DNA from: Closterium sp. NIES-65
Lineage: Eukaryota > Streptophyta > Zygnematophyceae > Desmidiales > Closteriaceae
DNA: 64,000 nt
Direction of reading: 5' to 3'
NCBI GenBank assembly: GCA_948144175.1
Contig: CANXME010002409.1
Span: 2,085,001-2,149,000, forward strand
Below, piece by piece: positions 1,491 to 35,929 of this stretch; the first letter of the stretch is position 1; each line of letters opens with the position of its first letter. Under the pieces are notes generated by a model, which did no database searches, was not told the DNA's origin, and worked only from the letters and a program-made list of their open reading frames with translations. Both the position numbers and the translations under genes were made by a program.

Positions 1491-4303
1491 TTAAGATTTA
1501 GCTTGCGCGAGGTACAACTCTGCAACCTCTCCTGCTGACGAGGCATCATCTGGAAGCCTGTCCAATCGGACTGACGCAAACCTTGGGAAGCGCAGGGAAA
1601 TCCCGCGAGTGGAATGCACCAACCCCAAGGCTGCTTGATGCACGGGCGACAAACTCAAATCTGAAACATGGTTTGGAGGTTACATGCGAGGAGAAATGAA
1701 ACAGGTAGAGGGGAAAGAGAGGAGGAGAAACAGAAAGGAAGAAAGAGAAGGATAGAGGGAACAACGAGAAGGGAGGAACAAGAAGGAAGAAGAACCAGGA
1801 GAAAGAGAAGAGCCAAACAAGAACTAGAGGTAAGAAGTGAGGCGAAACAGGATGATGAGAAACACGAAGGAGAAACCACAAGGGAGGAGAAACAGAAGAG
1901 CGAAGCGAATGGAGCAGCACAAGGGGATGGAGGCCCAGCGACGCAAATCTCCCACACTTTCATGTGGAAAGCGCAGATTGTGAGGAGCCTCAGAACAAGA
2001 ACCTACCGGCGAAGCGAATCTCCCACACTTCGTGAGGAACGAACCACACGTCAGGCTCTTCCAGAGTGGCCACATACGGGGGCTTGCGTGGCAGCATCAG
2101 CTCCTCACTCTCACGATACCGAGACGTTGCCTGGAGTGATGAGTAGTGCGGAGAGAATGGTGGGCGGGTCAGGATAGAATTACAATGGGTTGTGCCTTGA
2201 GACGAAGCGTCTCGTAGCAAGCTTCATACCACGGCTCATGGATACAAAACGAGGTGACTTTTGAGTCGACTCAAAAGTCTCCTCATAGCAAGCTTCATAC
2301 CATGGCTCATAGACACAGAACGCTGCCATCGAGGTACCTTGCACAGCGGCAAGGGAATCGGCAATTCAGACATGCATGGAGATTGGAAAGCATGCGCCTG
2401 CAACAACATGAACAGTCTTGGCTATGGTGTCATTAAGGCCTTGCGAGCTGGTACGGGGTTGGAAGAAGCCTGCAAGTGCAGGATGGGGGTGATGAGGTGC
2501 GTACCTGCGAGTAGAATAGTGATGAGGTGCGTACCTGCAAATAGAAGGCGTCTGAGAAGCCTGACATGACTCGACACACGCTCTCGTATCGCTCCGAGTC
2601 GGCATTGTAGCATGCCATCAAGAACGGACTGAACCTGTTGCCATGCATGCATGCAGTCATGCACCCATGCAGTCATGCACCCATGCACCCATGCACACAT
2701 GCACCCATCCACACATGCACGTATGTACGCACCCATGCAAATGCAGCAACCCCAAGCATCAGGCACCCAGCACGGGAGCAGACAGCAAGTAACAAAATAC
2801 CATGCTCTTTCCCTCCCTCCACCCTCCCCCCCCTCAAAACTCACTCTCACCATCCAGCCTTGCTGCAATTGCCATGCCTTGTGCGCCTATGGCCACCCAA
2901 TGGAAGAGCGGTTCCAACAAACAGAGAAAACCCTTTACTGTTGTCCAGGCTCGTCAAGTAGTATCACAGCTCTTTTCTCTTCCCCACCAATCCCGCCCGC
3001 CCTTCGTTCCGGTCCCTCGAAGTCCCAACCTCCGCGCAGCCCCAACGTTGCGCTCACCATCCGGCCTTGCGACCATTGCACTCACTGTGGGCACCAGAAG
3101 CAAGAGCGCCCATCCCAACCCTCCTCATCAGACCTTCGCAGCACTTGTGTCGTCCCCAAAACGCCCTTAGCTTTCACCACCCCAACCAAGCTCCCCTCCA
3201 GTGGCTCTCGCCATCCGGCCTCGCGGCCATTGCCATGCCATCCCATGCCATGCTATGCCATGCGTCGACATGCGCCGATGGGCACGAAATTCAGAGAATC
3301 ACCCAGCCCAGCCACATAGCCCAACATCCACTCCTCAGCACACCTTCACAGCACACCTTCACAGCACACTTCCTTGCCCCCATCCCGCCATTACTTTCAC
3401 CACCATACCCCCACCACACCCCCCTCCATTTCCCTCTCACCATCCGGCCTTGCGACCGTTGCCATGCCATGCGCCAATGGGCACCAGATCAAGGGAGTCA
3501 CCAAGCCCAGCCACGTAGTCTCGCTTCACCTGCCGCACGGTATGATGGGTGTGGGATGGGCACGGGAGGCATTGACAGGGTACGTATGTGGGACATGACA
3601 TGGGGCATCAGATCCAAGGAGCACCCAGCCAGTCCTGCCACATAGTCCGGCTTCACCTGCCGGCCGCATGGTGGTGGTGGTTCGTTGGCATGAGGGGCAT
3701 GGGGAGAGCGAGGGGCATGGGGGGAATGGGGGACAAGGGGGAAACGGGGGAGTACGAGTGGCCTAAAGAGACACCTCAGTCAAGCACACTTCAAACAACC
3801 CATGCGTCCATGTCCCCGTGCCCACCTTGAGCCACGAGTCAGAGCGCTTGTTGGGGCAGTAGAAGGAGGGAGGGCCGTCCAGCAGCTTCACCATCAGCCA
3901 GCACACGCCGGCACAATTCAGTCAAGCACAATTCCACCCATATCCCCCCCTCCCCTCCCCGTCCCCATGCCCTCACGCTCCCACCTTGAGCCACGAATCG
4001 GAGCGCTTGCTGGGGCAGTAGAAGGAGGGGGGCCGTCCAGCAGCTATCTTCTGCAGGAGATTTTTGAGACTTCTAAAATAACCCCCCTATGCCTCCATGC
4101 CCCCACACCCACCTTGAGCCACGAGTCGGAGCGCTTGTTGGGGAAGTAGAAGGAGGGGGGGCCGTCCAGCAGCTTCACCATCAGCCCCTCGCACCCGCGC
4201 TCTATCGCCGCGCCTAGGCTTGCCTCCACGGCTCCACTCCCACTCTCCTCTATTGCCTCTACCGTCCCTGCTGCTACTGCTGTAGATGCTCCTGCTATTG
4301 GTG

Positions 4304-4352
<49 letters not shown>

Positions 4353-7300
4353 AGGTGATGGTGCCGCTGTTGCTGCTGCAGCTGCTGGTTCTGCTTCTAT
4401 CTCCATCTCCCTTGGTTGCACTGGCAGGCCCTTGTCTGCAGGGCCCTGGTGTGTTGCTGCTACTGTTGCTGCTGCTGCAGCGGTTGCTGCTGATACTGCA
4501 GCTACTGCTTTAGATTCTACCTCCATCTCCCTGGGCTGCACTGGCAGGCCCTTGTCTGCTCGGCCCTGGAGCGCTGCTGCTGCCGCTGTTGTCACTGCTG
4601 CTACTGGTGCTGCTGCTGCTGCAGCGGTTGCTGTTGATACCGCAGCTGCTGCTTCAGCTTCTATCTCCACCACCCTTGGCTGCACTGGCAGACCCTTGTT
4701 TGCTCGGCCCTGGTGTGTCACTGCTGCTGCCGCTGTTGCTGCTGCTGCTACTGGTGCTGCTGCTGCAGTGGTTGCTGCTGTTACTGCTTCAGCTTCCATC
4801 TCCATCTCCCTTGGCTGCACTGGCAGGTACTTGTCTGCAGGGCCCTGGTATGCTGCTGCTGCTACTGCCACTGCCCCTGCTGCTGTTGTTGCTGTTGCTG
4901 GTGCTGCTGCTGCAATCTGTGCAGCACAAGCAGGCAAGCACAGGCAGTGCCACGAGTATTAAGACCACGAGCCATTCTCAGTCATCACAACAAGTCACCC
5001 CCCCTTGCAATCTCTCTCACTTGTACCCAAACCCGAACATGAGCTTCAAGACCCACCTTCTGGACGCATGTGGACGCATCTGGACGCATCTGGACGCATC
5101 TGGACGCATCTGGACGCATCTGGACGCATCTTCACTCAACGTCTTGCATACACCCACTTCCACCCCGGCAGTTTGCGACATCTCATGCAAGGAAAGTCTT
5201 TCAACTTCACGCGCTGCCCCTTGCATGCACCTGCCATGCGCACACACCCACCTCTGTCTGTGCAACGACCATGAGCCCTCCAGGAACCTCGCTGCTGGCC
5301 GCACCAGGCAGTGCTGCAACCAGAGCTGCACGGGTCATTATGTTGCCAAACGCAGAGGGAGGGAAGGAGGATACAAGGAGAATGGAGGAGGGAGTGAGGT
5401 CGAACGAAATTGGGTGAATGCAGAGAAACCTGGAACAGAAGACACCAAGGATTTGACTTTTGAGTCGACTCAAAAGTCAGAACACAGAGAAACCTGGAAC
5501 AGAAGACACGAAGGATTTGGGTCCTTGAGAAAGAAACAAGAAAGCGGGGTTGTAGGAACAGATGTGTGGTAGAATCAACAAAAACGAGGTGCGGGCGATG
5601 GGAAGGGAGAAGGCGAGCAGGAAAGGTTGGGGTGGACGGCTCACCCTCTCTACGCTCCCTCAGGCTCTTCTTGACGAGCCTGAGTGGGAATGGATGAGGA
5701 GGGAAATGAGGGAGGACCATGAGGGGATGGCATGGAAAGGAAGCAAGGCAGGAGCAGACGGTGGGTGGTGTGGTCGTGGTTCTGGTGCTGTGGAGAAGGG
5801 AAGTGCATTCTCTGAGCATGGAACAGGATCCACACAAGAAATAATGCCATATGCTGGGAAGACTGGACTGGAGCTTGGGCTGTGGCGCTGCCTTGGTAGG
5901 TGTGTGTCCCCCCCACAGAAGCAGATCCGGTAGTAGAAGGATATATTTTTGCAGATTGCAAGGCAGCAAAGGATATTGTAGGATGCCTTGGTGGAAGAAT
6001 GAAAGAAGAATGTATTTGGTGTCTTACGATTGGCCGTTGAGATAGAGCATGTCAAAGACGCAGACGCAGACTTGAGGACCTGCACATGCAAGCATGAACA
6101 CACACATGCACATCCGCATTTCAGATTCCAGAATCCCAGTACACAAGCTGGGGTCCAGGAAAAGCGCATGGCGAAATCAAAGAGAGAGTGTGCAAGCAAC
6201 CATATGCATGCGTGCAAGAAAGAGCCTAGCTGCCAGTCCCACCTGCCATGCTTCTACTGCTGCAACCACTACCCACTGCTGCCACCACTGCTTCCTTTGT
6301 GCTTGCCTCTGCCTCTCCTCCTGCTCCCTGCACCCCCCTGACTCCATCCACCTCTTCCACCCATCCCTCCGTTGCTCCCATCCCTCCCTCCTCAATACCC
6401 CTTCCTGTCGCCTCCCTCCCATCCTCCTCCATAGCATCAACCCTCTCTCCTTGACCTGTCCGCGCTGAAATGCTGCTATCGCCACCACCCCTCTCCTCCC
6501 TCTCGTCTTGCTTGCTCCCACCTGCCTTTGTTGCTCCAATTGCAGTACCAGCAATCATCTTACGTTGTCCCTTGCTTGCCTTTCCTGGCTCCTCTCTGCT
6601 CTCCGCTCTCTCCTTGCTGCCTCTTTCTCGCCGTGACAGCACTTGGAATGGCAGCAGCTTGTGGAAGCCCTGGGGAGTAGTTTCGTGTGACACTGGCACA
6701 ATCTAGTGCCCACCATACATGCCGACACACACGCACGCCCACGTTTGTACACAAAGACACCCAGGCACACAGAAACAGACACGCCAATAGAAGAAATTAA
6801 AAAGACAATTGCAACAGGCAGGTGAGAAGCAAGTTTGCAAAGATCCGCACTTGAATGCTGATTGAAGCTTGCAGCAAGTGGCACAATATGCTCGAATGCA
6901 TGAAAGACTCCCCCTAGGCAATTTTGAGTGGCACGAGCCTATATGTGCTCGATGCCCCGACGAGAGAATCAGCCAAGCAGCAGAGTGCTTCCTTCCAGCT
7001 GAATCACCTGCCGAGACGTCTCCCAGCTGACTTGTTACTTCCTTCTGGAAATTCCCATGAGATTCATGAGTGCTTTTTTTTTTTTATAGTAGTCTCGCCT
7101 CCCCAGAGTCATCCAATCCAGGAGCAGAGTGGGGCGGGTCACTTGCTCACTCACCTCGGCATCGAGAATGGCGGAGCACACAGAGGCATGTAGAGCGGTC
7201 TAAAGGGATAGTTTCGACTCGGATCCAACGGTCCTAACTCGCCCTATTCTCCTCTAAGTCGAGTTAAGGCTAGTAGGGAATGAATAGGTAAGAAGTTTGT

Positions 7301-10300
7301 CATTTAAAGCTCGCGGCCCAAATTGCGGGCCGCGCTGGGCAACCTTAGTAAGGTTGATTGATAGTTGTTTTGCAGGTGCTGGTTTTGCGAATTGAGGTTA
7401 CGGGTTGTATGAAGGAAGTTGATTGGCTAGTCAATTTGAAACACTGAGCTGATTGGCTAGCAAAATTGAAACAGTGTTTGCGGAGGGGGTTGGGTGGGAA
7501 ACTGGCAAGGATAGTATTTGTGCAATATGGGACTCATGCAACCAAACGCAAAGTGGCCCCTGGGGTCTACTGAGTCAGCGAAATGTGTTTGAGATTGGCG
7601 AGAAGTTGGGCGAAACCAAAGCCCTCAACCCACCCAACACCTCGACTAGCCAACCCTGCTCCCTCACCTCCCAACATGCAACTTTAGTAAAGTTGTACAA
7701 TTTGGGCCGCGAGCTTTAAACCTGAGCGTACGCGCGTTTCGGCTGGTGGCCTTCATCAGCGCTCGTTTTTTGAGAATTCTCAAAAGTCACATCGAGAATG
7801 GCGGAGCACACAGAGGCATGTAGAGCGGTCTGCACGGCAGCTATGGCGTCTGGGATGGGAACATGGCTGTGCACTCCTGGCTGCTGCGAGAGGGGCCTTC
7901 GTTCCAGGGACAGGGTGACAAGGTCGCTCACTCACCTCGGCATCAAGAATGGCGGAGCACACAGAGGGGTGCAGTGCTGACTGCACGGCAGCTATGGCGT
8001 CTGGGAACATGGCTGTGCACTCCTGGCTGCTGCGCGAGAAGAGCCGCACTGAAGCTGCCTCTGCTGCTGGTGTTGCTGATGCTGATGCTGGTGATGTTGC
8101 TGGTGCTGGTGATGGTAGTGCGTCTGGTGCAGCTGATGGTGCTACTGGCGATGCTAATGAGGATGCGCTTTCCACCGCTGAATCGTCAATTCTGCCACTT
8201 TCCATGGATGGTATTAGTGCTGATGAAGTAGCGCACACATGTATCTGTGCACGCTGACCATCATACCTGGAGAGGAAAGGGCAGGGATAGGCGCGTAGAG
8301 AGTATTGACAGCTGTATCTGTTTATGTACGAGCGTTTGTAGGTATAACTTGGTGGGAAATGGCCTATGTTATAGCTCCTAACAGCATCTGTAGCACAGAA
8401 ACGGCGACTTTTGAGTCGACTCAAAAGTCAGAAACGGCGAGATCCATCGGGCAGGCCGCAACAACTTGCAGGTGCATTCAAAGGAAAAAGCAAATTATTG
8501 TTTGAAAAAAAAAAAACGAACACACGCAAACGGACACAAAAAGCCATCAGGTGTAGCCCCTATTACACTCAAAATTCAATACCTTCCACCACAGATGATA
8601 GAGACGCCCATATTTCTCATACTTCCAAAACACTGAGAAAATAACTCTCACAGCACATACCCTACCTGCACTGCACACATCACACGGCCACAGGAGACGA
8701 GCATAACATACTTGAACTCACACGCGAATGCGTGGCCGTGAAACTTTGAGAGCACATGGGCAGGCCCAGTGGAAACCCTGGGGGGTTGCATGGGGTGGAG
8801 AGAGGTGGGAAGGGTTGACAGACGAGGGATGTTATTCGAGCCGACTCATAATACACTTGGAACCAGGAATGCAGGAATGCACAAGGCTGGATTAATGACA
8901 GCCTCGAGTATTGATGGAGCGGGGGGAATGCACGGGGTAGAGAGATTCAAAGGCGTTGACGAATGAGAGGGAAGTGCAGGGGATGGGTGAGACGAGATTC
9001 AGGGAACTGCGCATGCCAGTACACTTGGTCAGTGAGTGGTATTAGCTTTATCCCTCAACTCGCCTGGCTGGCATGGGCTTTGAAAAAACGACTCACTTGG
9101 CGAGCATGGGTTTGAAAGGGGTCCCTGGGGAGATGAGGCTGCCAGAGGCCACAGCTTGCAGCAGGAACGCCAGGCCAGCACCCAGCATGGGCGACGGGGG
9201 GGCGGTGACAGGAGTGGTACTGGAAGCTGCAGCGTCAGTGGCAGTGCTAGTGGTAGTGGTTGTAGCCACGGTGGCAGGTGTGGGAATGGGTTCGGTGGGG
9301 TGCGAGGGGGATGGTGTGCACGCGTTGAGGAGGAGTGAGCCCTTGTGAGGTGGTGGTGATTCTCGGCTGAGAATCAAGGGCACCAGCAACTCCTGTTGCA
9401 CGGGCAGGTGTAGAGGGGTGCGACACGGTGGTGATGCAGAGCGGTAGGAGGGATTGGGGAGGAATGAGACAAGATGCTGTGTTTTAAGGGTGGTCACAGA
9501 TGCAACAGCGACAGGGGCAGGAGCAGGAACAGTAACAGGGGCAGGGGCAGGAACAGGGGTAGAGGCACTACTGACGACCAAAGCCGGCAGCATGGCAGGA
9601 AGAAGGCGCACAGAGACTGAGGGCATAAGTTGACTCCTGCGAACTCTCAAAAGACGTACAGATGTTAAAGGCTATGTGGTATACAGGTGCCATGGATATA
9701 CTGCTGAGAACTGAGCATGGAACTCACAAGGTTCGGCAGAAAGTTGAACGCCTCAGCAAGAGCAGAGGAAGCTTCCTGCGTGGCAAAGCAACACGAGGGC
9801 TGACAGGCTTTACACAGTCGCAGGAGCAAGCAGGACAGGGGGCTAGAAGCAGTTGGTGCAAGGTACAGAACACAAGGGAGCAGAAGGGAACAGAGCAAAG
9901 CAGATTCTGCAGACGTATACAGTTGATACAAGCTGTTCCGTCTCTCCTCTGCATGCAGAGAATGCCAAGAAAGTGTTGCAACTCCTCCCCCCTTTCAGAC
10001 GTATCAATGCAAACACTGCATCCTTCACATACATTCTAATTTGAGTTTTGAAGATTTTAAACAGACACTCCATCCATTATTCACATCACACCAGAGTGCA
10101 CTCCACTCCACAGCCCAAAGCCCAAAGCCCAAAGCCCAAAGCCCAAAGCTCAACGCCCAAAGCCCAAAGCCCAAAGCTCAACGCCCTAAGCCCAAAGCCC
10201 AAAGCTCAACGCCCTAAGCCCAAAGCCCGAAGCTCAACGCCCAAAGCTCAACGCCCAAAGCCCAAAGCCCAAAGCTCAACGCCCAAAGCCCAAAGCCCAA

Positions 10301-22300: not shown

Positions 22301-25300
22301 GCACTCCTCTGCTGCACGTTCCAGCCCCACTGTGTCAACTGAGCACGGTAACGATGGTGCTGCTGCTGAGGAGGAGCCAAAGAAGTGCTTGATGCTTCGC
22401 TGCATGCCCCCTACCCTCGCCACCGCCGCACCCCCTCCTCTCTGCTGCTTGCCCACGGATTTCCTTCCTGCCTCTGTCCGGGACCTGGAACGCGCCCCTC
22501 CTCCCCCACCTCCCCCTCCTCCTCTCGACCCTCTCATGCGTGTGCTTTGTTTGGCCTGACTGCCAGGCGTTGCACCTGGCCTTGTGTCAGGCCTTACACT
22601 GAGCCCTGTAATGGGTGTCTTACCAGGCGTCAAACTGGGCGCCGGTGCGCAGGGTGTTGTTGACTCGCCTGGCCTTGTCCCAGTCTTTGTGCCTGACCTC
22701 GTGCTTGTGCAAGTCGTAACATCACCGTTGCTGTCGCTACCAGCCCCACACGGCTCCAACCGCCGCCGCTTCGCGGCTGGTAGTAGCCCGTCAGAAACCG
22801 CCACATCGTCGTGCAACGTTGCCACATCAGCAGGACCCGCCTGGTCCAATTCCTCCACACACCCTCCACCCTTACCACCGCACACTTCCCCTCCACCCTC
22901 CCTTTCTTCCATTCTCTCCGCCTTCCCCTCACCACACACATCACCAGCACCTCTTTCCAAAGAGAACAACCCCTCTGCTTGCCCCTTTTTCTCCTCTCTC
23001 ATCTCCCCGCCCTCCTCTCCCTCACCTTCTATCTTTTCCTCTCCTCTCTCCTCCCAACCTGACTCAACCATACACCCTCCCAAACCCTCACCTCCTCCCC
23101 CCCTTTCCTCTCCCCCTCCGACACCCCCACCCCCTCTCTCCACTTCTCCCTCACTCTCTCCCCCCACCACCACCCCTCCTCGCCCCTCTCTCCGCCTTCC
23201 AAACCCAGCCAAAAACCGCTGCTTACATGCCGACTCATCCACCAAACCTCTCAGATGATGCAGCTGATTTGTACCGGGGCGTGCTGTCTCACCCGTGTTG
23301 ACAGTGGGGATGATGCGGTGGGGGCGCAGGAACGAGAGGAAGGAGCGCAGCTCAGAGAAGCTGCAGTGCTCACTGTATGGCACCAGGTGAATCTCCAGGT
23401 CCATGCGCATGCCCCTGCTGCTGCGGTCTTCCCGCATGCTCTTACCCCCATCACTCATGCCCATGTCCCTCCCGTCTACCATACCACTGCTGCTCATGCT
23501 CACACCCTTTTCCAACGCCTCCATCCCTCCCGTCTCCTTTCCCGTGCCCATGCCCACGCCCACTTCCCCCATATCCAACCCCGCCTCCTCTCCCCCCACA
23601 CCCACCGCCCCCTCCTCTGCCTCCACACTCACACCCCGCTCCTCTCCCCCAACTACCACACTCTTCCTCCTCACCGGAAACCCTTCCCGCTTCATCTCAT
23701 ACATCCACCCAGTCGGCACCACCCCCACCACCCTCCCACACCCCCGCTCCCTACCCAGCCGCTCCATATTCCGCCAATTCGGCCGGAAGAACGGCCACAC
23801 GTCCCCCAGAACCCCCCAGCGCACCACATGCACGGGACTGGCCGCAGGATCCGTGGTGAACACTGCGAGTTCTGCTGGGGTTAGGTCGAGGGAGCGGAGA
23901 GTGTTGAGCTTGGCTGGGTCAACGACAATGCGGGTGTGGCAGTGGGAGGCTGTGGAGAGGAGGAGTTTCTCTTTGCCTATCACGTAGGTGGATACGAGGA
24001 TTAGCACTCGGTCGTTGCTGTGTGGCTTGCGCTGCTGCTCCTCTGCTGATGCCGCCGCCACTGATGCCGCTGCTGCTGTTGCCGCTCTGACTCCTCTCCC
24101 TTGTGCAACATCCATGGAATCGACACCCTGCTCTGTGCCTGCTGCTTTCCCTGTACAACCCTCTACTGTGTCTGCTGCATCTGCTGCCTCTGCTGCTCTT
24201 GAGATCCCACTCACCTCGCCACATCCCCTTTGCCTGACGCCCTCTGCCTCTCCCTCTGCCTCGTTCTCCCCATGTTTCTTTCCACCCCTATCTCCTTCGC
24301 CGCCCCCTCCCTCCATCCCGTCCCCTCCTTCCACCCCAACCCCCACCTCCTCCCCTTCCTCCTCTCCCCCATCCAAGCCACCTCCCAGGCCCTCACCTCC
24401 TCCTCCATCCTCTCTCCCTCTTACCTCACTCCCTCTCCCCCTCTCCCCCCCTTCCCCCAGCACTCTCCGCACCATCTGCGCCACATACTGCACGGCGTCG
24501 CTCTGGGGGGGGAACACGTGGCGCGGGTGGCAGTACGTGGTGTCCAGATACACTGCATCTGCACCCACCATCGCCTGCATCACAGGGTCCCCAAGCATGC
24601 ATGGGCTCAGCCGGAAATCCCCTGTGTGCACCACTCTCCGCCACTTCACTTCCCCCCGCTCCCCCTGCTCCTCTGATCCCCCCTCCCCTTCCCCCTTTCC
24701 CCCTCGCGGATCCCCTTCCATCCTCTCTCCTCCCCCCATCTCCCCTTTTGCGCTATCTTTGGACTTTCGCCTGCCTTCCGCCAGAAACTTCCCCTGCCCT
24801 CTCCCCCCCTGCCTCCCCCGCTCCTCCGCCGTGCTTCCCCCCACGTCCCCCCCTGCAGGCGGAATGCGGAACAGCAGCATGACAGCCCCCGGGCAGTGGT
24901 GCGCGTCCCGCAGCACCACGCGCGCGCCATCCACCGCCACGGGCGCGCGCAAGGGGAGCGCGCGCACCCACGCGGGGGGAATCCCGAGCACCTCGGAGAG
25001 GAGACGCGCAGTGACGGGGGAGCAGAAAATCACCCCCGCGCGCCAAGAGGGGGAAAGGCCGCAGTAGTGGTCCGCGTGGAAGTGCGTGAGCAAATAGCAT
25101 CGCGACCACGGCCCCGCGTGGCGGAAACCGTCCACGATAAAGCGCGTTCCGATAATACGCTTGTGTGCTGGGAAATTTCGAGGAAAGGGCTCGAGAGAGT
25201 CAGTCGCAGTGGGGTGATCCGTTGCGCTGATACCGAGGCTGTTTCTAGCGAGTGCGAACTCTCGAGTGCTACAGTACTCGGGGATGTCGTGTTCACCGCC

Positions 25301-25306
25301 GTCCAT
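1491..25306 (-). CDS. LIG6: DNA ligase 6-like protein: SNM1/beta-CASP nuclease fused to ATP-dependent DNA ligase
   Basis: Reconstructed as 20 exons with GT-AG borders and matching phases: 25306-21352, 20871-20754, 20365-20284, 19812-19710, 19514-19418, 11914-11812, 11475-11341, 9775-9728, 9671-9097, 8777-8712, 8266-7936, 6702-6243, 6079-6028, 5679-5645, 5325-5252, 4916-4113, 3529-3441, 2634-2535, 2130-2007, 1660-1491 (TAA). The total is about 2506 aa, against about 1400 for land-plant LIG6; the excess is low-complexity insertion. Domain order: metallo-beta-lactamase/beta-CASP, DRMBL, UBA-like, ligase DNA-binding domain (LGAMMRTVLPAL), nucleotidyltransferase (KYDGQR), OB fold. The family works in nuclear break repair and seed vigour in plants (known); the same role here is inferred. 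Weakest points: exon 9's acceptor (9671, chosen because it is the only nearby AG in phase) and exon 1's non-consensus donor GTCCGT. Intron 5 holds Copia-1. Confidence 0.93.
1932..1971 (-). pseudogene. Decayed copy of the tail of LIG6 exon 19
   Basis: On the minus strand this repeats the exon 19 end (VWEIRFAG): it reads as a diverged VWEICVAG about 40 bp downstream of the true exon, inside intron 19. The true copy ends at the GTAGGT donor at 2006. Confidence 0.6.
2256..2279. repeat. 24-bp perfect palindrome between 40-bp direct repeats (intron 18)
   Basis: Perfect palindrome with core CTTTTGAGTCGACTCAAAAG. It is flanked by direct repeats 2212-2251 and 2283-2322, which match at 35 of 40 positions. 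Confidence 0.9.
2489..2544 (-). repeat. Duplicated exon 18 tail and splice donor
   Basis: Two tandem 30-bp copies of the LIG6 exon 18 end with its donor (TTGCAG|GTACGC on the minus strand). The true donor is at 2534-2529. The second copy downstream keeps a usable CGCAG|GTACGC. Confidence 0.75.
2638..2745. repeat. CATGCA/CATGCACCC minisatellite
   Basis: Short imperfect tandem repeat of CATGCA and CATGCACCC in LIG6 intron 17, immediately upstream of exon 18. Confidence 0.8.
2841..3680 (-). pseudogene. Array of exon 17 copies of LIG6 (one intact, four decayed)
   Basis: The intact exon 17 is 3441-3529. Diverged copies lie at about 3600-3670, 3205-3320, 3051-3125 and 2841-2915. They are recognised by the repeated GGCCGGATG|GTGAG donor region, the GTGAAGC...TATGTGGC start, and residues such as NFVPIGA. 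One copy (3205-3320) has an internal stop, and all have lost parts of the reading frame. Copies lie on both sides of the true exon. Confidence 0.7.
3826..4060 (-). pseudogene. Two extra copies of the motif V end of LIG6 exon 16
   Basis: Copies at about 3826-3900 and 3985-4055 repeat LLDGPPSFY-C-P-(N/S)KRSDSWLK and keep the CTCAAG|GTGGG donor. They have Cys where exon 16 itself has Phe (FYFP). No good 3' splice acceptor precedes them, so they look like tail duplications, but an alternative exon cannot be excluded. Confidence 0.75.
4290..4916 (-). repeat. Ala-rich CTG/CAG tract and four-fold module inside exon 16
   Basis: A GCTGCT... tract (4298-4352) encodes poly-Ala. Four copies of a module of about 120-140 bp encode QG(P/R)A(D/N)KGLPVQPREME-like segments separated by Ala/Thr/Val runs. 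The whole stretch is in frame within LIG6. Confidence 0.85.
5061..5133. repeat. 12-bp tandem repeat GGACGCATCTGG
   Basis: About six copies of a 12-bp unit containing GGACGCATCT in LIG6 intron 15. Confidence 0.9.
5455..5478. repeat. 24-bp perfect palindrome between 34-bp direct repeats (intron 14)
   Basis: Identical to the palindrome at 2256. Its flanks 5421-5454 and 5485-5518 are direct repeats with one mismatch in 34. Only six bases separate the palindrome from the right-hand copy. Confidence 0.95.
7303..7720. mobile_element. MITE-like element with 23-bp terminal inverted repeats
   Basis: Both ends carry TTTAAAGCTCGCGGCCCAAATTG or its complement as a perfect 23-bp inverted repeat, followed by a small hairpin (CAACCTTAGTAAGGTTG). 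There is no coding capacity, and I found no convincing target duplication. It lies inside LIG6 intron 11. Confidence 0.75.
7767..7784. repeat. Variant seam palindrome with AATT centre
   Basis: TTTTGAGAATTCTCAAAA, an 18-bp perfect palindrome that abuts (six bases away) the right-hand 42-bp direct repeat at 7790. Confidence 0.8.
7790..7890 (-). pseudogene. Decayed second copy of LIG6 exon 11
   Basis: On the minus strand it repeats SRSSQECTA..., DAIAAVQTALHASVCSAILD of exon 11. The sequence is interrupted after ILD by the palindrome, so the Glu codon and the donor are lost. The intact exon is 7936-8266. Confidence 0.75.
8406..8429. repeat. 24-bp perfect palindrome between 9-bp direct repeats (intron 10)
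   Basis: Same 24-bp palindrome as at 2256 and 5455. AGAAACGGC occurs directly on both sides (8397-8405 and 8430-8438), which looks like a short target-site duplication. Confidence 0.92.
8789..8972. repeat. Degenerate seam palindrome with decayed direct repeats (intron 9)
   Basis: 8831-8853 resembles the palindrome (TATTCGAGCCGACTCATAAT). Related sequences GGGTGGAGAGAGGT... (8789-8830) and GGGTAGAGAGATTC... (8930-8972) flank it. It reads as an old, eroded example. Confidence 0.5.
10108..10646. repeat. CCCAAAG / CTCAACG minisatellite, block 1
   Basis: Tandem 7-bp units CCCAAAG mixed with CTCAACG and CCCTAAG in LIG6 intron 7. It translates to a meaningless repetitive ORF. Confidence 0.95.
10903..11315. 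repeat. CCCAAAG / CTCAACG minisatellite, block 2
   Basis: Same units as block 1, separated from it by about 255 bp of unique sequence. It ends about 25 bp downstream of the exon 7 donor. Confidence 0.95.
11968..12170 (-). pseudogene. Two decayed copies of LIG6 exon 6
   Basis: On the minus strand both segments repeat the exon 6 pattern (CTGC(G/A)AGGCAGGG...AAGGCCCTCATT), at about 11968-12050 and 12090-12165. They lie upstream of the intact exon (11812-11914). Neither keeps the complete reading frame and donor. Copia-1 inserted just beyond them at 12216. Confidence 0.7.
12216..12355 (+). repeat. Copia-1 5' LTR
   Basis: 140 bp, TGTCAAACTATATTTC...TGTGACA, matching the copy at 19196-19335 with four differences. 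Confidence 0.97.
12950..13810. repeat. Copia-1 leader tandem array (unit about 160-170 bp)
   Basis: About five units containing CACCCGTTCCAGCCAGAGC and runs of AGAACCGCAC. It lies between the primer-binding site and the first recognisable Copia-1 coding sequence. It produces long artefactual ORFs on both strands. Confidence 0.9.
14055..18979 (+). pseudogene. Copia-1 pol remnant (zinc knuckle, protease, integrase, RT, RNase H)
   Basis: 14055-14915 holds a zinc-knuckle-like CWNPDHSASSC and the protease motif LESGASSCFF (Glu for the usual Asp). A (GGTCA)n run near 14890 shifts the frame. From 14921 the frame carries the integrase zinc motif, core (LDVRGPSP, IVVDDYSRYTTVFPL, SPQQNGVAERRIGL) and, after a Gln-rich linker, RT (FKARYVARGFRQREGVDFF, YVDDLVFA) and RNase H (SDSSWADD, SSCEAE) to TAG at 18977. 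In-frame TAGs at 16424, 16547 and 17720 each replace a CAG, judging from repeat units or related copies. It is not functional as it stands. Confidence 0.93.
19196..19335 (+). repeat. Copia-1 3' LTR
   Basis: 140-bp partner of 12216-12355, followed directly by the GTAAA target duplication. Confidence 0.97.
20918..21178. repeat. 20-bp tandem repeat in LIG6 intron 1
   Basis: About 12 copies of a unit close to GGCATGGCATTTCATGGGAT, starting just upstream of exon 2. It is open in several frames but not coding. Confidence 0.92.
21352..25306 (-). other. LIG6: LIG6 exon 1: SNM1-like metallo-beta-lactamase, beta-CASP and DRMBL module
   Basis: One long coding exon of about 1318 codons from the ATG at 25306. 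Residues 43-60 read RNFPAHKRIIGTRFIVDG. The metal-binding motif HFHADH lies at 75-80, DAHHCPGAVM at about 134-143, HTGDFRLSP near 225 and YLDTTYC near 255. The beta-CASP/DRMBL part gives STYVIGKEKLL near 440 and LVPYSEHCSFSELRSFLSF near 640-660. A UBA-like stretch (VGLPGLTAAVAVRLLKAHGGD) lies near 1050-1080. Between these are Gly/Glu/Arg-rich insertions and a CTG/CAG tract (21418-21560) encoding poly-Ala. All nuclease signature residues I can check are present, so 5' nuclease activity is plausible. Confidence 0.93.
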
Positions 25307-26541: not shown

Positions 26542-28264
26542 ATGGCTTTCGTACGTTTCCTGGTCGTTCTGCTTTCCGCCTCCGCCGCGCTCTCGTCCAT
26601 ACCTTCCGCGCGCGCGCAGCCCTCGTGTCCGCGCCCGCCGACGGTGGCGCAAGTGAACCTCTCCGCGTACGCGGGGCGGTGGTTCGAGATCGGCACGAGC
26701 GCGCGCTTCAAGCTGCAGCGGGAAAACGGCCTCGTGTGCAACCAGGTGCGCTACACGTTCAGCGCGGGGAGCGGGGGGAGCGCGGGTGGCGCCGACGCGG
26801 GGACGAGCGGCGTCAGTATCAGGGTGGAGAATTCGGGGCGACTGGTAGCGTCGCCCGCTGTGTTGCAGAGCATGGGCAGTGTCGCTGGGAATAGCCGAGA
26901 CGCGTGCATGTGAGTGGAAGCGAAAAGGGAGGGTGTGGGAGGGATGGAAGAAGTGGGGAGGGGATGTGTTAGGAAATCGAAGCGGTCCTGCAGTTTTATG
27001 GCAGGGCCTTGAAGGAGAGAGGTGTAGTATCCCGTACGTACATGATACTACACCTCTCTCCCTCAAGCCTCTCTCAGAAAACTGCAGGTACCGCTTCAGT
27101 ATTCTGACAGCAAAGAGAGAGGGGATTCGAAGTTGGGGGGATGAGGGGAGGCTTATTCAGTCAGCAATAGCCGTGGGTGACCATCTAGATTCCCGTTTTG
27201 GAATGTGCTTGCTTCGCCTTTCCCTGCCATTGAATCTGTCTCTCTTGTTTCTCTCCTCGCCCTGCGCCATTTCCTTCCTCATCTTCCCCCTACCATTCTA
27301 TGCACAGTGCCCTGGCGAACGTGTCCTCTGCTGCGGCCTCTGCTCTGGAGCTGCTCCAGTCACAGCCACAAGCTGCTGCTGCCTGCTCACAGGTACGCAA
27401 ACTGCGGGGGTGCTGCTTCTGCTGCTGATGGTGGTTTGTTGTCTCCTGCTGATGTATTGCCGTCCGTTTGTCATCTTCTCCTTTCGGCCGGTATCCATCC
27501 TCCTGTTCCCCCACCCACAGGCCAACATCACAAACGAGTTTCTCAATATCGAGGCGTCAGCGCGCAGCATCTCCGCGTCCATCGCCGCCATGGCTACCCT
27601 CGCAGCGCGCATCTCCCAACTCGACTTCCACAACGCGTCTCTCAACCTCCTCTCCAACCAGCTGCTCCTGTATGCATCCGCATCCGCGGATAAGGCCAGC
27701 CAGATAGCATCCGCTGCAGCAACTATTCAGAATGCTACTAGCGCAAACTGTGACAGCTCTGTGTCAACAGCAGCAGCGAGTATCCTCGTATCTGCGAATG
27801 CTCTTCGGGATGCGTTGAACCGGGTGGGAGCAGCAGTGGCTCCTTTCGCTGGATCTGACATTCTCTCTATTTCCTTGGCTTCCGTCGCCAGCGTTCCTCT
27901 TCCCTTCGGCGGGATCCCAACCTCGGTGTTTGGCCAGGCTGTCCCCAGTACTAGCGACCCCGCTAAGCTCACAGTCACCTTCGATCTTTTCCCTAGTACC
28001 TCTACCGAGCCCAACTACTGGATACTCGCGCTGGATGGGAGCGAGGCGGAAGGTTATTCCTCCGCGCTGGTGTTCTCGTGCATGGAACCCCAGGGATTGG
28101 ATCCTACCCCGCGCGTGGACGTGTTTATGATCTCTAGGTCGCCTGATATGCCCGAAGACGAGTTGCAGGAGATGCTGGGGGTTCTGTCTGGGTACGGAGT
28201 GGGTCTAGGCTGCGATAACCCGTTTGTGCGCACCGTGCAGGACCGTGCTAGGTGCGGCTATTAG
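26542..28264 (+). CDS. Secreted lipocalin-like protein with a helical insert
   Basis: Three exons: 26542-26909, 27308-27392 and 27521-28264 (TAG), about 398 aa, phases 2 and 0. Residues 1-28 form a signal peptide (FLVVLLSASAALSSIPSARA). The lipocalin entry motif YAGRWFEIGTS follows, and the C-terminal half has a lipocalin-like end: KLTVTFDLFP, PNYWILALDG, ALVFSC and VFMISRSPDMPEDELQEML. Between these lie about 150 Ala/Ser-rich residues predicted to be helical (NITNEFLNIEASARSISASI onward), absent from ordinary lipocalins of about 180 aa. A small hydrophobic ligand carried outside the cell or in a lumen is the family-level expectation; the actual ligand cannot be told. Paired cysteines (SCPRP, LVCNQ, FSCME, LGCDN) fit a secreted fold. 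Confidence 0.8.
27008..27067. repeat. 24-bp inverted repeat (hairpin) in lipocalin intron 1
   Basis: Arms 27008-27031 and 27044-27067 pair with one mismatch around a 12-base loop (CCGTACGTACAT, itself containing palindromic GTAC). Confidence 0.92.
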
Positions 28265-29300: not shown

Positions 29301-29332
29301 TACGTCAATGAGACGCATAGTGAGGATGAGTC

Positions 29333-29356
29333 GTGTTTTGAGTCGACCCAGAACAC
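29333..29356. repeat. Seam palindrome with 9-bp direct repeats
   Basis: Imperfect version of the palindrome (GTGTTTTGAGTCGACCCAGA then ACAC). GTGAGGATG lies directly on both sides (29320-29328 and 29357-29365). Confidence 0.8.
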
Positions 29357-29554
29357 GTGAGGATGCGTGACTAACCCCCTCCTCACTTCCTTATTCCTCT
29401 GCCTCTCGCCCTCTTCACACTCACACCCCCGCAAACTCACTCCTCTCCTCTCCTTCACACAAAATGCACGCACACGCACACGCACATACACATACACACA
29501 TGGAGCATGGACGGCAGGGGTGAGATAGCGCATGCACGGTGCATCTAGCCACAC

Positions 29555-29905
29555 TCTTGAGCCCACTCAAAAGACAAACTACTACTGCTATTTTATGCCG
29601 CACCCTGCCCCACTCACCCACACATGCATCGCCCTGTGGTTCGTAGGGGTGTATGCAGGACACACAGCCACACGCTTTTGAGTGGACTCAAAAGTCTTAG
29701 GTACTAGTGCTATGCTAGAATGTACCCTGCGCTACTCACCAGCACATGCATCGCCCTGTGGTTCGTAGGGGTGTATGCAGGACACACAGCCACACGCTTT
29801 TGAGTGGGAGTCTTAGTCTAACTACTAGTGCTATGCTATGCCGCACCCTACCACACTCACCAACACATGCATCGCCCTGTGGTTCGTAGGGGTGTATGCA
29901 GGAGC
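29555..29905. repeat. Triplicated tail of EGF exon 7 with seam palindromes
   Basis: Three direct copies of the exon end encoding CIHPYEPQGDACVG plus its donor lie at about 29612-29665, 29735-29790 and 29861-29905. Palindrome variants lie at 29555-29574, 29675-29694 and 29795-29812 (the last half-deleted). The repeat period is about 120 bp. Confidence 0.85.
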
Positions 29906-31889
29906 ACTGCGCATGACCTTGCAGGACCACACATGCAGCATTGGCACCGCACTGCACCGCTTCGCATGATGCTGCTGGGGGGTGGTGCGGGCGGAGAGTG
30001 CAGGGTTGCAATTGGTGACGGTTGGGAGATTGCACACAGAAACACACAGCTATGCACAGTAACACACAGCTATGCACAGCAACACACGGCTATGCACAGT
30101 AACACACACCTACACACAGTTGCACACAGCTATATGCCAGTGTGTGTGCACACATGGTCTTGATTGTAACTCTAGTATACGTCTGCATGCAGGAAAGCAA
30201 TTACACACATGCAGACATGCAAGAGCGCATACAACTCACTTGGATCCTCTGGTGCGCGTCGGCGTGCAACAGGGCGGGCACACGTGAAGGCCCGGGGTGT
30301 CAGGTGAATGCACACTGTGTTGGATGGGCACAGCTGACAGCGGTCTGTATGGAGGATTGGGGAGAGGAGCAAGATGGGAGAGGAGAGAACGTTGTGTTTT
30401 GGCTGATACACATGTGAAGGCCCGGGGTGTCAGGTGAATGCACAGTGTGTTGGATGGGCACAGCTGACAGACAGTGGTCTGCACGAAAGTCCAGAGGGGA
30501 AAAGAGGAGAGGGGTGAGGGGAGAGGGATTTGTGTTATAGCTGACTCTAAAAAACACATGTGAATGCCCGGGGTGTCAGGTGAATGCACACTGTGTCGGA
30601 TGGGCACAGCTGACAGACAGCGGTCTGCGTGCGGGGTGGAGTGGAGGAAGAGGAGACGGGAGGAAGGCGCGGGGGATTCAGTCGAGTCTAGAGGCACATG
30701 TGATGGACCACACAGTGCTGGCTGGGTCTTGTTTGCAACGGTCTCCATGGTGGGAGAAGAAAGATATGGGAGAGGGGGGGGATGGGGAGGATGGGGAGAG
30801 AGGACTGAGCGGAGAAGGGAGAGGAAATGGGAGGGGGGAGAGTGGAGAGTGAGATGAGTTTGAGAAGAGAGGGGTGGATTGCAGTGGCGACGCAACATTC
30901 TAGAATCGGACGCCACGACATGAGAGGGAATGGCATGGCATGGCATGGCATGGGCAAGGCATGGGCATGGGCACGGGCACGGCATGACATGGCATGACGT
31001 GGCACGCGATGGCATCAAAGGTCCTACCTATGCACGCCCTCTTCTTTTGGTAGAACCCTGCCCAACACACACAGCGCACACTCCTCCCCACCACCCGGCA
31101 GTCGCTATATTCTGGACACCTGGTCACTGTGCAGGGGTCTGGGGAGGGAGGGAGAGGCAGGAAAGGAACCGAAGGTCTGATAGATCATAGGGCCCAGCAA
31201 GAACACACACAGAGCGCACACACCTCCTCCCCACCCCACCGCCCGGCAATCGCTATACACCGGACACCTGGTCACTGTGCAGGGGTCTGGGGAGGGAGAA
31301 GAGGAGGGAGAGAGGGGAAAGAAAGGGTTGCTATGGGGCCGGCTGGACACGGTCAGGCAGGAAGGTGGTCACCGTCGGGCGAGCTGAGTTTTGAGTCGAC
31401 TCAAAGAAGGGTTGGTGTGGGGCCGCACACCTGGCCACCGTCAGGTTCGCAGCATGGCCCAGCTGCCACTGGCCCAGTTCCTACCACGATAGCCAGGTCA
31501 GCCCAGACCAGACAAGTGGTCGCTTCGCAGGGGTCTGGTGCGGTTGAGAGGCAAGAAGGGCTGGCCAGCCGAGTGGATTGGGTCTGCTACTGGCAGGTAT
31601 CAGACTCGCCTGCCTGCCTGTCTCAAGAAGCAATGCTTTGATCTTACAGAGTGGAAAAAGGTTTCGAGCCGCAATGATTTTACCACAGGTTTGACATAAG
31701 TCAGATGACGATTAGACAATGATAAGAGGCGTCTCCGGCCAGGCCTCACCCACGCACGTGACTTTTGAGTCGACTCAAAAGTCACCTTGGTTGGCCGTGG
31801 GAAACGCACTTGGCCGTGCTTATTGACAGGCAACACAACACACGGCCTTCCAGCCACACTGCATGCGTGCACACACGCACGCACGCACG

Positions 31890-31975
<86 letters not shown>

Positions 31976-34561
31976 TGTGTTCTCCTGCTTCACACAAACA
32001 TGCATTCCGGCTCGACTCGACTCACCCACACACGTGCGGTTGGCTGTGAGGAACGGCCGCTCACACACGCACTTGGCCGTGCCTCCCATAGGCAACACAG
32101 CGCAAGGCCTTTCCCTCACACTGCATGCGCGCATTCTGAGTCGACTTGAGAATAAGCCTCACTCACCCACGCACGTGCTCTCCTGCTCCACTCACCCACG
32201 CACGTGCGGTTGGCTGTGAGGAACGGCCGCTCACACACGCACTTGGCCGTGCCTCCCAACGCGCGGCACTTGGCCTTTCCCGCACACTGCATGCGCGAAC
32301 ACACGTGCTGGGACGGAGGCCGGCTGGGTATAGGGGGATGGCTATGGGACGGAGGGCGCGATCGGGAGGGTGGGCGGCGGGGGGCAGGGGTGCGTTTGGG
32401 GGAAGGGGGAGGTTTGGGGGAGGGGGTGCGTTTGGGGGAGGGGGTGCGTTTGGGGGAGGGGGTGCGTTTGGGGGAGGGGGTGCGTTTGGGGGAGGGCGGA
32501 GGTTTGGGGGAGGGAGGCCGTATGCGGGAGGACGGAGGGGCGCGGGAGGGTGGGCGGCGAGGGGAGGGTGGCGGGCGTTTGGGGGAGGGTGGAAGTTTTG
32601 GGGGGAGTGGACGTTTGGGGGAGGGGGAAAGCTTGGGGGAGGGGGAACGTCTGGGGGAGGGGGAAGGCTTGCGGGAGGGAGGCGGGCGGCGGGAAGAGGG
32701 GGGAGGGGAGGTGCCTGGATTGGAAGGGGAATGGGAAGTTGGAGGGAATGGGGAATGAATATGGGAGAACAAAGGAAGAGAAATGCAGTCAAGGTGAGGT
32801 GAGGGAGGAGCAGGAAAGCAATGGGACTTGCAAAAATCGTTGGCAGTTACTCCGAAGAAATACACGCACGGAATGCACACATGATGTGATGTATCACCCG
32901 AATCATCATCACCATCTTACCCCGTCTAGGTGGCTGCTTAGGCCTTGTGCTCCCACCACCTTTGCCTTTTCCGCTTCCACTTCCGCCGCTATCCCAGCTC
33001 CCATCATCAATAGGTGTTGCCTCCCACCCCCCGTTGTCATCCCCATACCCGTCATCATACCCCCCATCATTTCCCCCATTCCCTCCCCCTTTCCCTCCCC
33101 CTTTCCCTCCCCCTTTTCCTCCCCCTTTCCCTCCCCCATTCCCGCCCCCTTTTCCTCCCGCTTTGCCTCCCGCCTTTCCTCCCTTTTTCCCACTAACCCC
33201 CAGTTTACTCCTTTCCCCCAATTTCCTTGTACTTTCCCCCACCGCCCCGCCCCCCGCCTTCCCCCCTCCCCCTTCCGCCAACTGCTGGTGGTTTGAGGGG
33301 GAGGGGGAAGAGGGCAGGCGCAGAAGGTTGGGGGAAGAGCCGCTGATCTGGGGAGGTTGGGGGCGTTGGGGTAAATGGGGGGTAGAGGAGGAGGAGGAGG
33401 AGGAGGAGGAGGAGGAGGAGGAGGAGGAGGAGGAGGAGGAGGAGGAGGAGGAGGAGGAGGAGGAGGAGGAGAAGTGTGATAGAGGGTGGGGCACGGGTAC
33501 GGGCCACCTCATTAGGTTCGGTGAAGCTTGTAGAATTGGTGCGTTGGGTAGGTTCGATCGGTTTAATATATTTGTCTTGGTAAGGATGCACGCAGCCGAG
33601 GAGTTGTGTCGAAAAGGGGACTGTAACGAGCAATGAGTGTTAGGCGGGCACAACGTTAATGCGCAGGGGACTGCTCACGAGAAGTAAGGGAGAAAAGCAG
33701 GGGGGAGGAGGGAAGGGGGGCAGGAGGGGTTTGAGGGGGGGAACGGGAGGAAAGAGGAGAGATGAGAGGAGGAACCAGGAGTGGAATAATCTCAATCCCA
33801 CCCCACGGATGTGAGAGAGTTTGTTTGTTTGATTGCAGCTAAATGGACTGATTTCGCCTGTTTCAAAAAAGAAATCGCAAGCAAAGAATTAACAAAAACA
33901 GGATTAAAAAAAACAACATATGTAGTGCACTTTTGGCCGTTACCTCTGCACTGACGGCCGTTACCTCTGCACTGACGGCCGTTACCTCTGCAGTGATGCC
34001 CGTTACCTCTGCACTGACGGCCGTCAGTGACGAACGGCGGGTTGCAGGCGCAGTGAGGCCTGTGCTTGCGCACCTCGCACACGCGGTTTACAGGGCAGGC
34101 GCGCACACGGCAGGGGTCTGCGGAAGGAGATGGGGCGGGGAGAGAGACGGGGGGAGAGACAGGGTTGGGGATGGACGAGAGATGGGGGAGGCGAGGAAGA
34201 GTGTGGCACGGGACCATTGCTAGTAGTTGCTACTATGATAGTAGCAACTACTAGCAACTGCTAGCAACTACCAGTACTGTTTTTCACTGCATCTGCAATG
34301 TAAACCCGTGGCACTACCTCGACTGCTTTCGAAGTGCCATAATAGTCGACGCAACTCCGTAGTGTTATCTCGACTGCTCGGAGGCGCCGCGGAGTCGGAA
34401 CGCGTCGCAGGCGCCGCGACACGCTGGAAGAGCGCGAACGCCAGTAGCGCCACGCGCAGGAAGGATGGAGAGGATTGAAGAAACGGCCTGGACGGCCGGG
34501 ATGGCAGACATAAGCGCCGCACCGTGCGGCGCGTGCCGCGGCGAGGGCAGCGAGCTGACAT
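29861..34561 (-). CDS. Secreted or membrane-anchored multi-EGF-like protein (3' end unresolved)
   Basis: Exons 34561-34318, 34117-34007, 33526-32921, 32714-32196, 31138-31028, 30344-30240 and 29971-29861 all join in phase 1, as is typical of EGF exon shuffling. Exon 1 starts MSARCPRRG and has a hydrophobic segment (FLRVALLAFALF, residues about 35-46) as signal or anchor. Exon 2 is an EGF module (DPCRVRACPVNRVCEV...). Exon 3 is low-complexity: about 30 Ser, then KGGG repeats. Exon 4 is a Pro-rich SPKRTP linker plus EGF (CVCERPFLTANRTCVG). Exon 5 is DPCTVTRCPEYSDCRVVG..., exon 6 a degenerate module lacking a Cys, and exon 7 CEAVQCGANAACVVLQG.... Spacing C-4-C-5-C-8-C-1-C-10/11-C is clear in four modules. 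An extracellular matrix or adhesion role is only inference. The acceptor of exon 3 is the weakest junction, and no stop-bearing last exon was identified. Confidence 0.72.
30400..30745 (-). pseudogene. Three decayed copies of EGF exon 6
   Basis: Copies at about 30405-30485, 30545-30625 and 30690-30745 repeat QLCPSNT(V/L)CIHLTPRAFTC or pieces of it. Two share a 4-base CTGT duplication that breaks the entry phase. The reading then runs into stops such as the TAG after TGTGTTTTT. Confidence 0.7.
31135..31530 (-). pseudogene. Decayed copies of EGF exon 5
   Basis: A copy near 31200-31272 reads DPCTVTRCPVYSDCRAVGWG and then diverges. A more eroded one near 31470-31530 begins DPCEATTCLVWAD. The palindrome remnant at 31390-31405 lies between them. 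Confidence 0.6.
31390..31405. repeat. Seam palindrome remnant with decayed direct repeats
   Basis: TTTGAGTCGACTCAAA. Related sequence AAAGAA(A)GGGTTG.TATGGGGCCG and its surroundings occur on both sides (about 31317-31380 and 31402-31455). Confidence 0.75.
31758..31785. repeat. 28-bp perfect palindrome inside a decayed EGF exon 4 copy
   Basis: The usual 24-bp palindrome extended by GT/AC on each side. Compared with the intact exon 4 tail (GCCAACCGCACGTGCGTGG), the decayed copy here has the palindrome between GCCAACC and GTGCGTGG. Confidence 0.9.
31765..32190 (-). pseudogene. Decayed copies of EGF exon 4
   Basis: A copy at about 32036-32125 retains CVCERPFLTANRTCVG and its donor, but a one-base shift near the Cys-rich start breaks the frame. 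An older copy at about 31750-31860 is split by the palindrome. The donor junction itself is duplicated again at 32161-32180. A weak palindrome (TTCTGAGTCGACTTGAGAA, 32134-32152) marks the join. Confidence 0.75.
31891..31970. repeat. (CA)n microsatellite
   Basis: Roughly 40 uninterrupted CA dinucleotides. Confidence 0.98.
32385..32714 (-). repeat. Pro-rich coding repeat (SPKRTP) of the EGF-like gene
   Basis: 18-bp units encoding (S)P(S)PKRTP, at least four of them identical, within exon 4. They resemble cell-wall hydroxyproline-rich linkers. Confidence 0.8.
33385..33472. repeat. (GAG)n trinucleotide tract
   Basis: About 29 GAG units. On the minus strand it encodes the poly-Ser run in exon 3 of the EGF-like gene. 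Confidence 0.97.
33940..34022 (-). repeat. 21-bp tandem repeat of a splice donor
   Basis: Four copies of a unit containing CAGTGCAGAG|GTAACGGCC at and below the end of EGF exon 2. Each copy carries a GT donor. Each extra unit would add seven in-frame residues (NGRQCRG or NGHHCRG). Confidence 0.9.
34219..34255. repeat. 15-bp perfect hairpin in EGF intron 1
   Basis: GCTAGTAGTTGCTAC and its complement separated by seven bases, followed by further CTAGCAACT repeats. Confidence 0.9.
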
Positions 34562-34735: not shown

Positions 34736-35064
34736 GGAGAGGCTACTCGGCCTTAATAGAAATCTCCTCTACGACTCAAAGAGTATTCTACTAGTCAAGC
34801 TACTACTAGAGTTACTAATGACCGACGCGGGTCCATTCAGGGTGTGGCTGATGGCTGACAGTGGTATTGGTGCGACGCGGACGGAGTAACTATTAACGAG
34901 CGTTGCGTGCGCGGAGTTTCTGGAATTTACCAACAGCAAGCGACGCCGCGTAACGCGCGGTGCCACGACCCGTATCGGCGTGTGACGCTACTGGTAGGCA
35001 GATATGGGGCGCTATGCGAAACGTACAACCTAACTACATGTTCTCTGTTGCGTCCGCTCTTCGA

Positions 35065-35714: not shown

Positions 35715-35929
35715 GCTCTTCGATCGAAGAACCGTACGATGCACCCCGTGCAACGAGGAGGAAGGGTGGTGTTGTGCGTTCGGTGGCTTGAGAATACAAT
35801 TTCTCCACCACATTGCACCATATCATATCCATCTTCAACGTCTTGCAATATTTGTAGCCCATCTGTATTTCCAACCTGTGGAACAGTTTCGATGGGCTGG
35901 GTAACTGACAAAACCGAATCGCCACCTGA

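Follow-up and report, generated by a model that had tools for sequence, protein, structure and literature searches.

Double-hairpin elements of Allomyces and repetitive hairpin elements of sponges are short hairpin or palindromic repeats of mitochondrial DNA. Researchers have found similar repeats in yeast mitochondria, where the GC clusters (e.g. GC42), in the passages of PMC4478555 that deal with them, are very short palindromic sequences flanked by direct repeats and proposed to be mobile. The palindrome family that we describe here from the alga Closterium sp. NIES-65 shares with the GC clusters and double-hairpin elements the combination of a short palindrome and flanking repeats, in 10 of 16 copies tested and as a likeness of structure only. 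However, GC clusters are mitochondrial and 42 nt long with loops, their flanks are AG or ACT (2-3 bp) rather than 9-43 bp, and identical copies of the four commonest clusters number 5 to 25 in one strain, as against tens of thousands of copies in Closterium, as far as those passages go (PMC4478555). In the green lineage, the organelle palindromes of Volvox carteri are described, in the sections of PMC2670323 concerned, as short selfish repeats of introns and intergenic DNA, with an average of ~50 nt and a 3-5 nt loop; they spread in organelles and their nuclear copies were suggested to be inert transfers, whereas the Closterium copies are nuclear. The strings 'direct repeat' and 'duplicat' do not occur in the main text of that paper (PMC2670323). 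The LIMPs of Lobosphaera, in the portion of PMC4524435 that presents them, are mitochondrial, with pentanucleotide units, a 7-nt loop and 19 copies. The text of the paper on Closterium genomes (PMC10407611), among whose sequenced strains are NIES-64, NIES-4550 and NIES-4552, does not contain 'palindrom'. The palindrome sequence was not found in the open-access literature, and no such element is described there as spreading in the nucleus, judged by titles and the starts of abstracts, with subscription papers outside this scope.

MITEs and other non-autonomous DNA transposons have terminal inverted repeats and target duplications, go with a related autonomous element that carries a transposase, and reach high copy numbers in genic DNA. 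The Closterium palindrome resembles them in being an inverted repeat throughout, but it has no internal region, its centre rather than its ends is conserved, and in place of a fixed duplication of ~2-11 bp its duplications measure 9-43 bp, six of eight at 37-43 bp. Duplications of variable length are typical of target-primed reverse transcription, and this likeness to LINEs and SINEs is set against near-perfect palindromy through the centre and the absence, by eye, of a poly(A) or other tail on the short copies. Templated insertions by polymerase theta and tandem duplications from paired nicks leave short local duplications with filler; the Closterium sequences recall them in their short local duplications and in one inverted templated segment (stretch L014), but the filler would here be one family sequence genome-wide.

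The palindrome family in the window and in the genome

The window, by which we mean the whole 64,000-nt stretch analysed, holds the following gene stretches, which we take to be parts of a single LIG6-like gene split by a Copia element:

4047-4958, minus strand, ATP-dependent DNA ligase stretch (E 5e-5, below the curated cutoff)
7783-8427, minus strand, ATP-dependent DNA ligase stretch (E 7e-7)
21116-25306, minus strand, DRMBL (SNM1-type) stretch

A further minus-strand gene at ~29-34 kb is EGF-like by eye, its protein matches being weak (best E 0.013, below cutoff), and the ORF at 26542-26913 gave no match in the protein search. To the right of 33 kb lie a LINE ORF (36359-40564) and, at 45-60 kb, Copia ORFs; one of the latter is a reverse transcriptase ORF (58203-59717) whose best 120 matches include Closterium sp. 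proteins with identities of up to 97%. Two other structures were seen by eye, namely a long hairpin at 27006-27069, which has weak miRNA-type Rfam matches and lies within a larger, MITE-like inverted repeat, and an inverted-repeat element of ~660 bp at 35060-35720, separate from the palindrome family.

A first, sequence-only reading of this DNA had reported about a dozen copies of a palindrome between 2 and 33 kb, and most of these hold up. The perfect 24-mer GACTTTTGAGTCGACTCAAAAGTC occurs at 2256, 5455, 8406 and 31760, with arms in common, and clear variants with 18-21 of the 24 letters stand at 7765, 29333, 29552, 29673 and 31386; the positions 8831 and 32134, however, are weak candidates with 16/24 letters each, a level at which a Markov null (20 simulations) yields a mean of 0.6 matches per window, and 29795 is a half-site only, CTTTTGAGTGGGAGTC. 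The same reading had noticed none right of 33 kb, and indeed nothing there matches the palindrome at 17/24 letters or more. Palindromes are also present, as it had said, within the roughly 120-bp tandem units at 29.55-29.90 kb. The 20-bp core with up to three mismatches has 7 matches in the window and 0 in 100 shuffles, and by eye the copies sit between exon-like segments, a position of interest for comparison with introners, whose insertion creates a new spliceosomal intron. The palindromes and their candidates, apart from the copy in the insert described below, are:

2251-2284, palindrome GAGGTGACTTTTGAGTCGACTCAAAAGTCTCCTC, outer arms mismatched, perfect core at 2256-2279; its ends overlap the flanking repeats, so that the boundary is ambiguous
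4059-4082, possible decayed copy GATTTTTGAGACTTCTAAAATAAC, 16/24 letters and 8/12 pairs, which could be chance; a ligase exon end is duplicated around it, one copy on each side
5454-5479, palindrome TGACTTTTGAGTCGACTCAAAAGTCA; base 5479 is common to the palindrome and the right repeat, so that the exact boundary is ambiguous
8406-8429, palindrome GACTTTTGAGTCGACTCAAAAGTC, with repeats abutting exactly on both sides
29332-29357, decayed palindrome CGTGTTTTGAGTCGACCCAGAACACG whose outer arms, GTG/CAC, are symmetric; base 29357 is shared with the right repeat
29552-29903, about three tandem units of ~120 bp, by eye an exon-like end plus 5' splice site; they hold a degraded palindrome at 29552, another palindrome at 29673 and the half-site at 29795
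31386-31407, copy whose core has 3 mismatches; the test detected no repeat abutting it
31758-31785, palindrome GTGACTTTTGAGTCGACTCAAAAGTCAC, no abutting repeat
32130-32153, weak variant with core AGTCGACT, 16/24 letters, which could be chance

In the Closterium assembly (874,075,685 bases in 2,400 contigs; the palindrome counts made in it are lower bounds) the palindrome is far from confined to this locus. TTTTGAGNNNNCTCAAAA has at least 30,327 copies against 4 for the reversed control, the 20-mer core with up to three mismatches occurs at no fewer than 38,866 places against 14, and exact TTTTGAGTCGACTCAAAA, with the centre TCGA, is found at least 13,080 times against 0. Confinement to two genes is thus rejected by the core count, and chance occurrence is rejected by the shuffles, the Markov null and the genome counts against reversed controls. 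The host DNA is an 874-Mb assembly, and the contig concerned is longer than 2.1 Mb and carries nuclear-type protein genes; the family is nuclear, not organellar. The palindrome 18-mer had 0 matches in viral contigs, peptide motifs derived from the palindrome were found in 0 of 120 Closterium Copia proteins, and a search for sister strains with array peptides scored 7,996 candidates, not one of them at E 1 or better.

Flanking direct repeats and tandem clusters

Ungapped direct repeats lying within 6 nt of the palindrome were scored at 16 copies, nine in the window and seven in 300 kb of other genome stretches, a score of 8 or more counting as a pass; the weak or half copies at 4059, 8831, 29795, 32131 and L019 near 187 were left out. 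Abutting repeats are present at 10 of the 16. For 8 of these 10 the gap is 0-1 nt on either side, and at L014:498, L019:4653 and window 8406 the repeat lies exactly at both edges (gap 0/0). In a first null with arrays unmasked, 17% of 600 random positions reached score 8; because the unmasked arrays inflated this figure, the null was redone with arrays masked, and in non-array DNA abutting repeats occur at 6 of 10 copies against 15 of 3,000 random positions. The palindromes are therefore flanked by direct repeats far more often than random non-array positions. Inside or beside arrays 4 of 6 copies pass. The window copies had been noticed partly for their repeats, which is a selection bias, and threshold and slack were chosen after the sites had been seen, so that the 300 kb fetched regardless of repeats give the fairer, if small, figure: 5 of 7 copies pass (two of the five belonging to one array), and 2 of 3 outside arrays. 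A wider survey of the 364 kb made up by window and sample found 35 palindromes of any sequence, nine of which score at least 9 for abutting repeats; these are eight members of the family and one palindrome in a plain tandem array, family membership being known for the best 12 of the 35.

The pairs read in the window are:

2211-2251 and 2282-2322, direct repeat pair of 41 bp, 36/41 identical
5415-5453 and 5479-5517, direct repeat pair of 39 bp, 35/39 identical
7160-7201 and 7790-7831, direct repeat pair of 42 bp, 42/42 identical
8397-8405 and 8430-8438, direct repeat pair of 9 bp, AGAAACGGC, 9/9 identical
29320-29331 and 29357-29368, direct repeat pair of 12 bp, 11/12 identical

Exact pairs outside the window, in L014 and L019, measure 43, 37 and 41 bp, so that the eight exactly read duplications are 9, 12, 37, 39, 41, 41, 42 and 43 bp long, six of them at 37-43 bp; the array copy at 29673 has a longer flanking match of 93 bp. 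A handful of copies have a single palindrome between two copies of the flank: three of them lie in the window (8397-8438, 5415-5517 and 2211-2322) and two in the sample (L014:455-576, 42/43 identical, and L019:4616-4713, 36/37). Such an arrangement would be expected from insertion with target duplication rather than from duplication of a unit that already held the palindrome.

Six of the 16 copies failed the test (31386, 31758, 7766, 29552, L010:6374 and L014:1861). At L014:1861 a repeat is present but lies 12-14 nt from the palindrome, at L010 an 81-bp repeat abuts only when gaps are allowed, and at 7766 the flanking repeat is perfect but encloses a 588-bp insert. The palindrome at 31760 interrupts a repeat unit of which related units at 32010 and 32180 have no palindrome, an internal comparison without a clean duplication. 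Of the sites for which flanking repeats had been claimed from sequence alone, 2256, 5455, 8406 and 29333 are borne out and 7767 has its perfect repeat with the insert in between, but 31390 is not confirmed.

Many copies are clustered, which bears on the view that they are plain minisatellites, i.e. that the palindrome simply lies inside tandem units, no insertion having occurred, and that hairpins promote tandem duplication. Among the 50 TTTTGAGNNNNCTCAAAA places listed, a non-random set from the first contigs only, 22 fall in 7 clusters with members less than 150 bp apart, copies within a cluster not being independent of one another, and tandem arrays with 2.2 or more copies make up ~26% of the bases in window and sample, both of which speak for that view. 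Clusters, pairs or longer, keep constant spacings of 37, 45, 63, 64 and 77 bp (20-mer with up to three mismatches), 55 bp (TTTTGAGTCGACTCAAAA), 61, 67 and 74 bp (the GAC/GTC form) and 29, 42, 53, 59, 108 and 125 bp (TTTTGAGNNNNCTCAAAA), and in L019:20-145, the only cluster read outside the window, the unit is palindrome plus flank. However, grouping the listed places at <150 bp gives 35 separate loci, 28 of which are single copies, and in single copies the palindrome occurs once and the flank twice instead of the unit twice; moreover, flanks are unrelated between loci while the core is constant. We therefore consider plain minisatellites improbable as an account of the family, and tandem arrays as the sole explanation are rejected for the single copies by the array-masked null and the exact pairs.

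The reverse relation, in which the palindrome would mark every local duplication, does not hold: by eye, at least 15 of 27 self-matches have no family palindrome between their copies, so that local duplication at this locus is not in general due to the palindrome. Repeated partial-exon tandem duplications, each comprising an exon end and 5' splice site, were seen by eye at 2.4-4.2 kb in the DNA ligase gene and at 29.2-32.3 kb in the EGF-like gene, mostly without palindromes.

Arm symmetry, the 588-bp insert and the L014 copy

The inserts are about 22-36 bp long and have a conserved TTTTGAG...CTCAAAA around a 4-bp centre that is usually self-complementary (the copies read have TCGA, AATT or ACGT). 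Conservation is confined to this central part: the outer arms beside the core vary among copies (GAC, TGC, CAC, GAT, GTG), as do their lengths, the longest palindrome being the perfect 36-mer TGAAATCACTTTTGAGAATTCTCAAAAGTGATTTCA in L014, and the flanks at different loci are unrelated. Nevertheless, the arms are mostly symmetric despite differing between copies. Ten exact cores in the 364 kb include nine with a self-complementary centre, and of 30 flanking arm positions 24 are paired; genome-wide, for the one arm pair counted, matched GAC/GTC arms number at least 3,176 as against 74 for mismatched GAC/GCA (32 + 42 by strand, likewise a lower bound). Several inserts, though few copies, can be read by eye as TG...CA. 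A second family of palindromes, which has the core CGAACATGTTCG and symmetric arms that vary, was seen at L003:390-435, 521-556 and 4607-4636, without notable abutting direct repeats there.

A conserved core with compensatory arm changes would also be expected of a cis-acting palindromic protein-binding site that is kept by selection, the local duplications having arisen independently. On that account, however, the exact abutment at L014:498, L019:4653 and window 8406 would have to be put down to chance. The family also has a very large number of copies, and the related units at 32010 and 32180 do without the palindrome, so we regard a binding site as very improbable.

We next consider where the arms come from. 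Copying of the outer arms from neighbouring DNA was not seen at 12 of 16 sites, where the outer 9 letters have no recurrence within 3 kb; the recurrences at L019:61, L019:124 and window 5454 and 8406 are apparently other family copies, and in L019 near 187 the right arm, by eye, is also present in the flanking tandem unit. These counts weigh on the idea of a break-repair scar, which the sequence-only reading had put forward beside a mobile palindrome: error-prone, polymerase-theta-like repair of staggered breaks or paired nicks would duplicate the overhang and leave a foldback filler, the palindrome being a favoured filler and not a mobile unit. At L014:1847, beside a palindrome, 14 nt repeat in inverted orientation the DNA that begins 50 bp upstream (1797; 13/14 letters by eye), a signature of templated insertion that suggests repair-type copying at this one site, and in the two genes of the window many local duplications have no palindrome. 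Filler of local origin should, however, vary from site to site, whereas TTTTGAG...CTCAAAA recurs at no fewer than 30,327 places, and at 12 of the 16 sites the outer letters have no source within 3 kb. We think the repair scar rather unlikely.

A longer insert raises a different question. Its record is:

7202-7789, insert of 588 bp enclosed by perfect 42-bp copies and ending on the right in the palindrome TTTTTTGAGAATTCTCAAAAGTCA (7766-7789); it has an inverted repeat within it (7303-7325 / 7698-7720) and, near 7759, a minus-strand motif resembling a hammerhead (by eye and regular expression)

With a palindrome exactly at one end, as a longer copy should have, and a perfect 42-bp duplication around it, this insert keeps a retroelement origin in play. 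The palindromes would then be ultra-truncated, hairpin-ended retroelements, made from LINE/SINE or Penelope-like RNA reverse-transcribed at a nicked target; most copies would stop after the hairpin, and a distant second-strand nick would give long and variable duplications. Hammerhead motifs of such a kind occur in Penelope-like elements and retrozymes. We rejected a hammerhead ribozyme in the insert, since the motif comes from a regular expression and has no Rfam support: the window gave no gathering-level match, and its 13 weak matches are to miRNA models and one sRNA model, 0 of them overlapping a palindrome. Furthermore, no second copy of the insert exists in the 364 kb. Truncation should also leave one fixed 3' and one ragged 5' end, which fits this one insert, but the short copies read are symmetric, and a centre that is self-complementary in 9 of 10 exact cores is not a free loop. 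That the symmetry runs on through the centre speaks against a simple RNA hairpin with a free loop; it favours the copying of one arm from the other. We hold a retroelement origin to be unlikely.

A putative self-copying palindrome

The core observation of the sequence-only reading, a palindrome with flanking duplications, is real, and its details are confirmed and its interpretation supported in part. Since the copies tested do not mostly lack flanking repeats and the palindrome is neither limited to two genes nor at chance frequency, a tiny mobile palindrome with variable target duplications fits well with the counts and the abutting repeats, although its mobility is putative.

On these comparisons we lean towards a large family of ultra-short, non-autonomous mobile palindromes that duplicate their target. 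In such a process the target strands would be cut ~10-45 bp apart, most often ~40 bp, the palindrome would be joined between the cut ends, and gap filling would leave the target duplicated on either side, so that the insertion would be the cause of the duplication. A new copy may arise by foldback or hairpin copying from one arm, whereby any change in that arm would be mirrored in the other; the symmetric arms would be best explained in this way, because each copy would be made from one arm. The resulting repeat-palindrome-repeat could then expand into a minisatellite via unequal exchange or slippage. The enzyme for integration would presumably be supplied from elsewhere; no autonomous partner came to light in the DNA read here, and to our knowledge duplications of ~40 bp match no known transposase family.

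We further speculate, tentatively and with more doubt than belief, that this self-copying palindrome may be the smallest mobile element of eukaryotic nuclei, one with no internal region, whose arms would be regenerated from each other, which would integrate by cutting the two strands at a distance of about four helical turns, and which would have seeded many of the minisatellites of the genome. If near-perfect palindromes of such a size do have long duplications beside them at tens of thousands of nuclear sites, they would be an extreme of mobile-element miniaturisation. They would also be a tangible origin for minisatellites and short tandem duplications within genes, in an alga closely related to land plants. 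The symmetry of the arms would offer a handle on how palindromes can be copied without decay, and the ~40-bp duplications would point to an unfamiliar cutting geometry.
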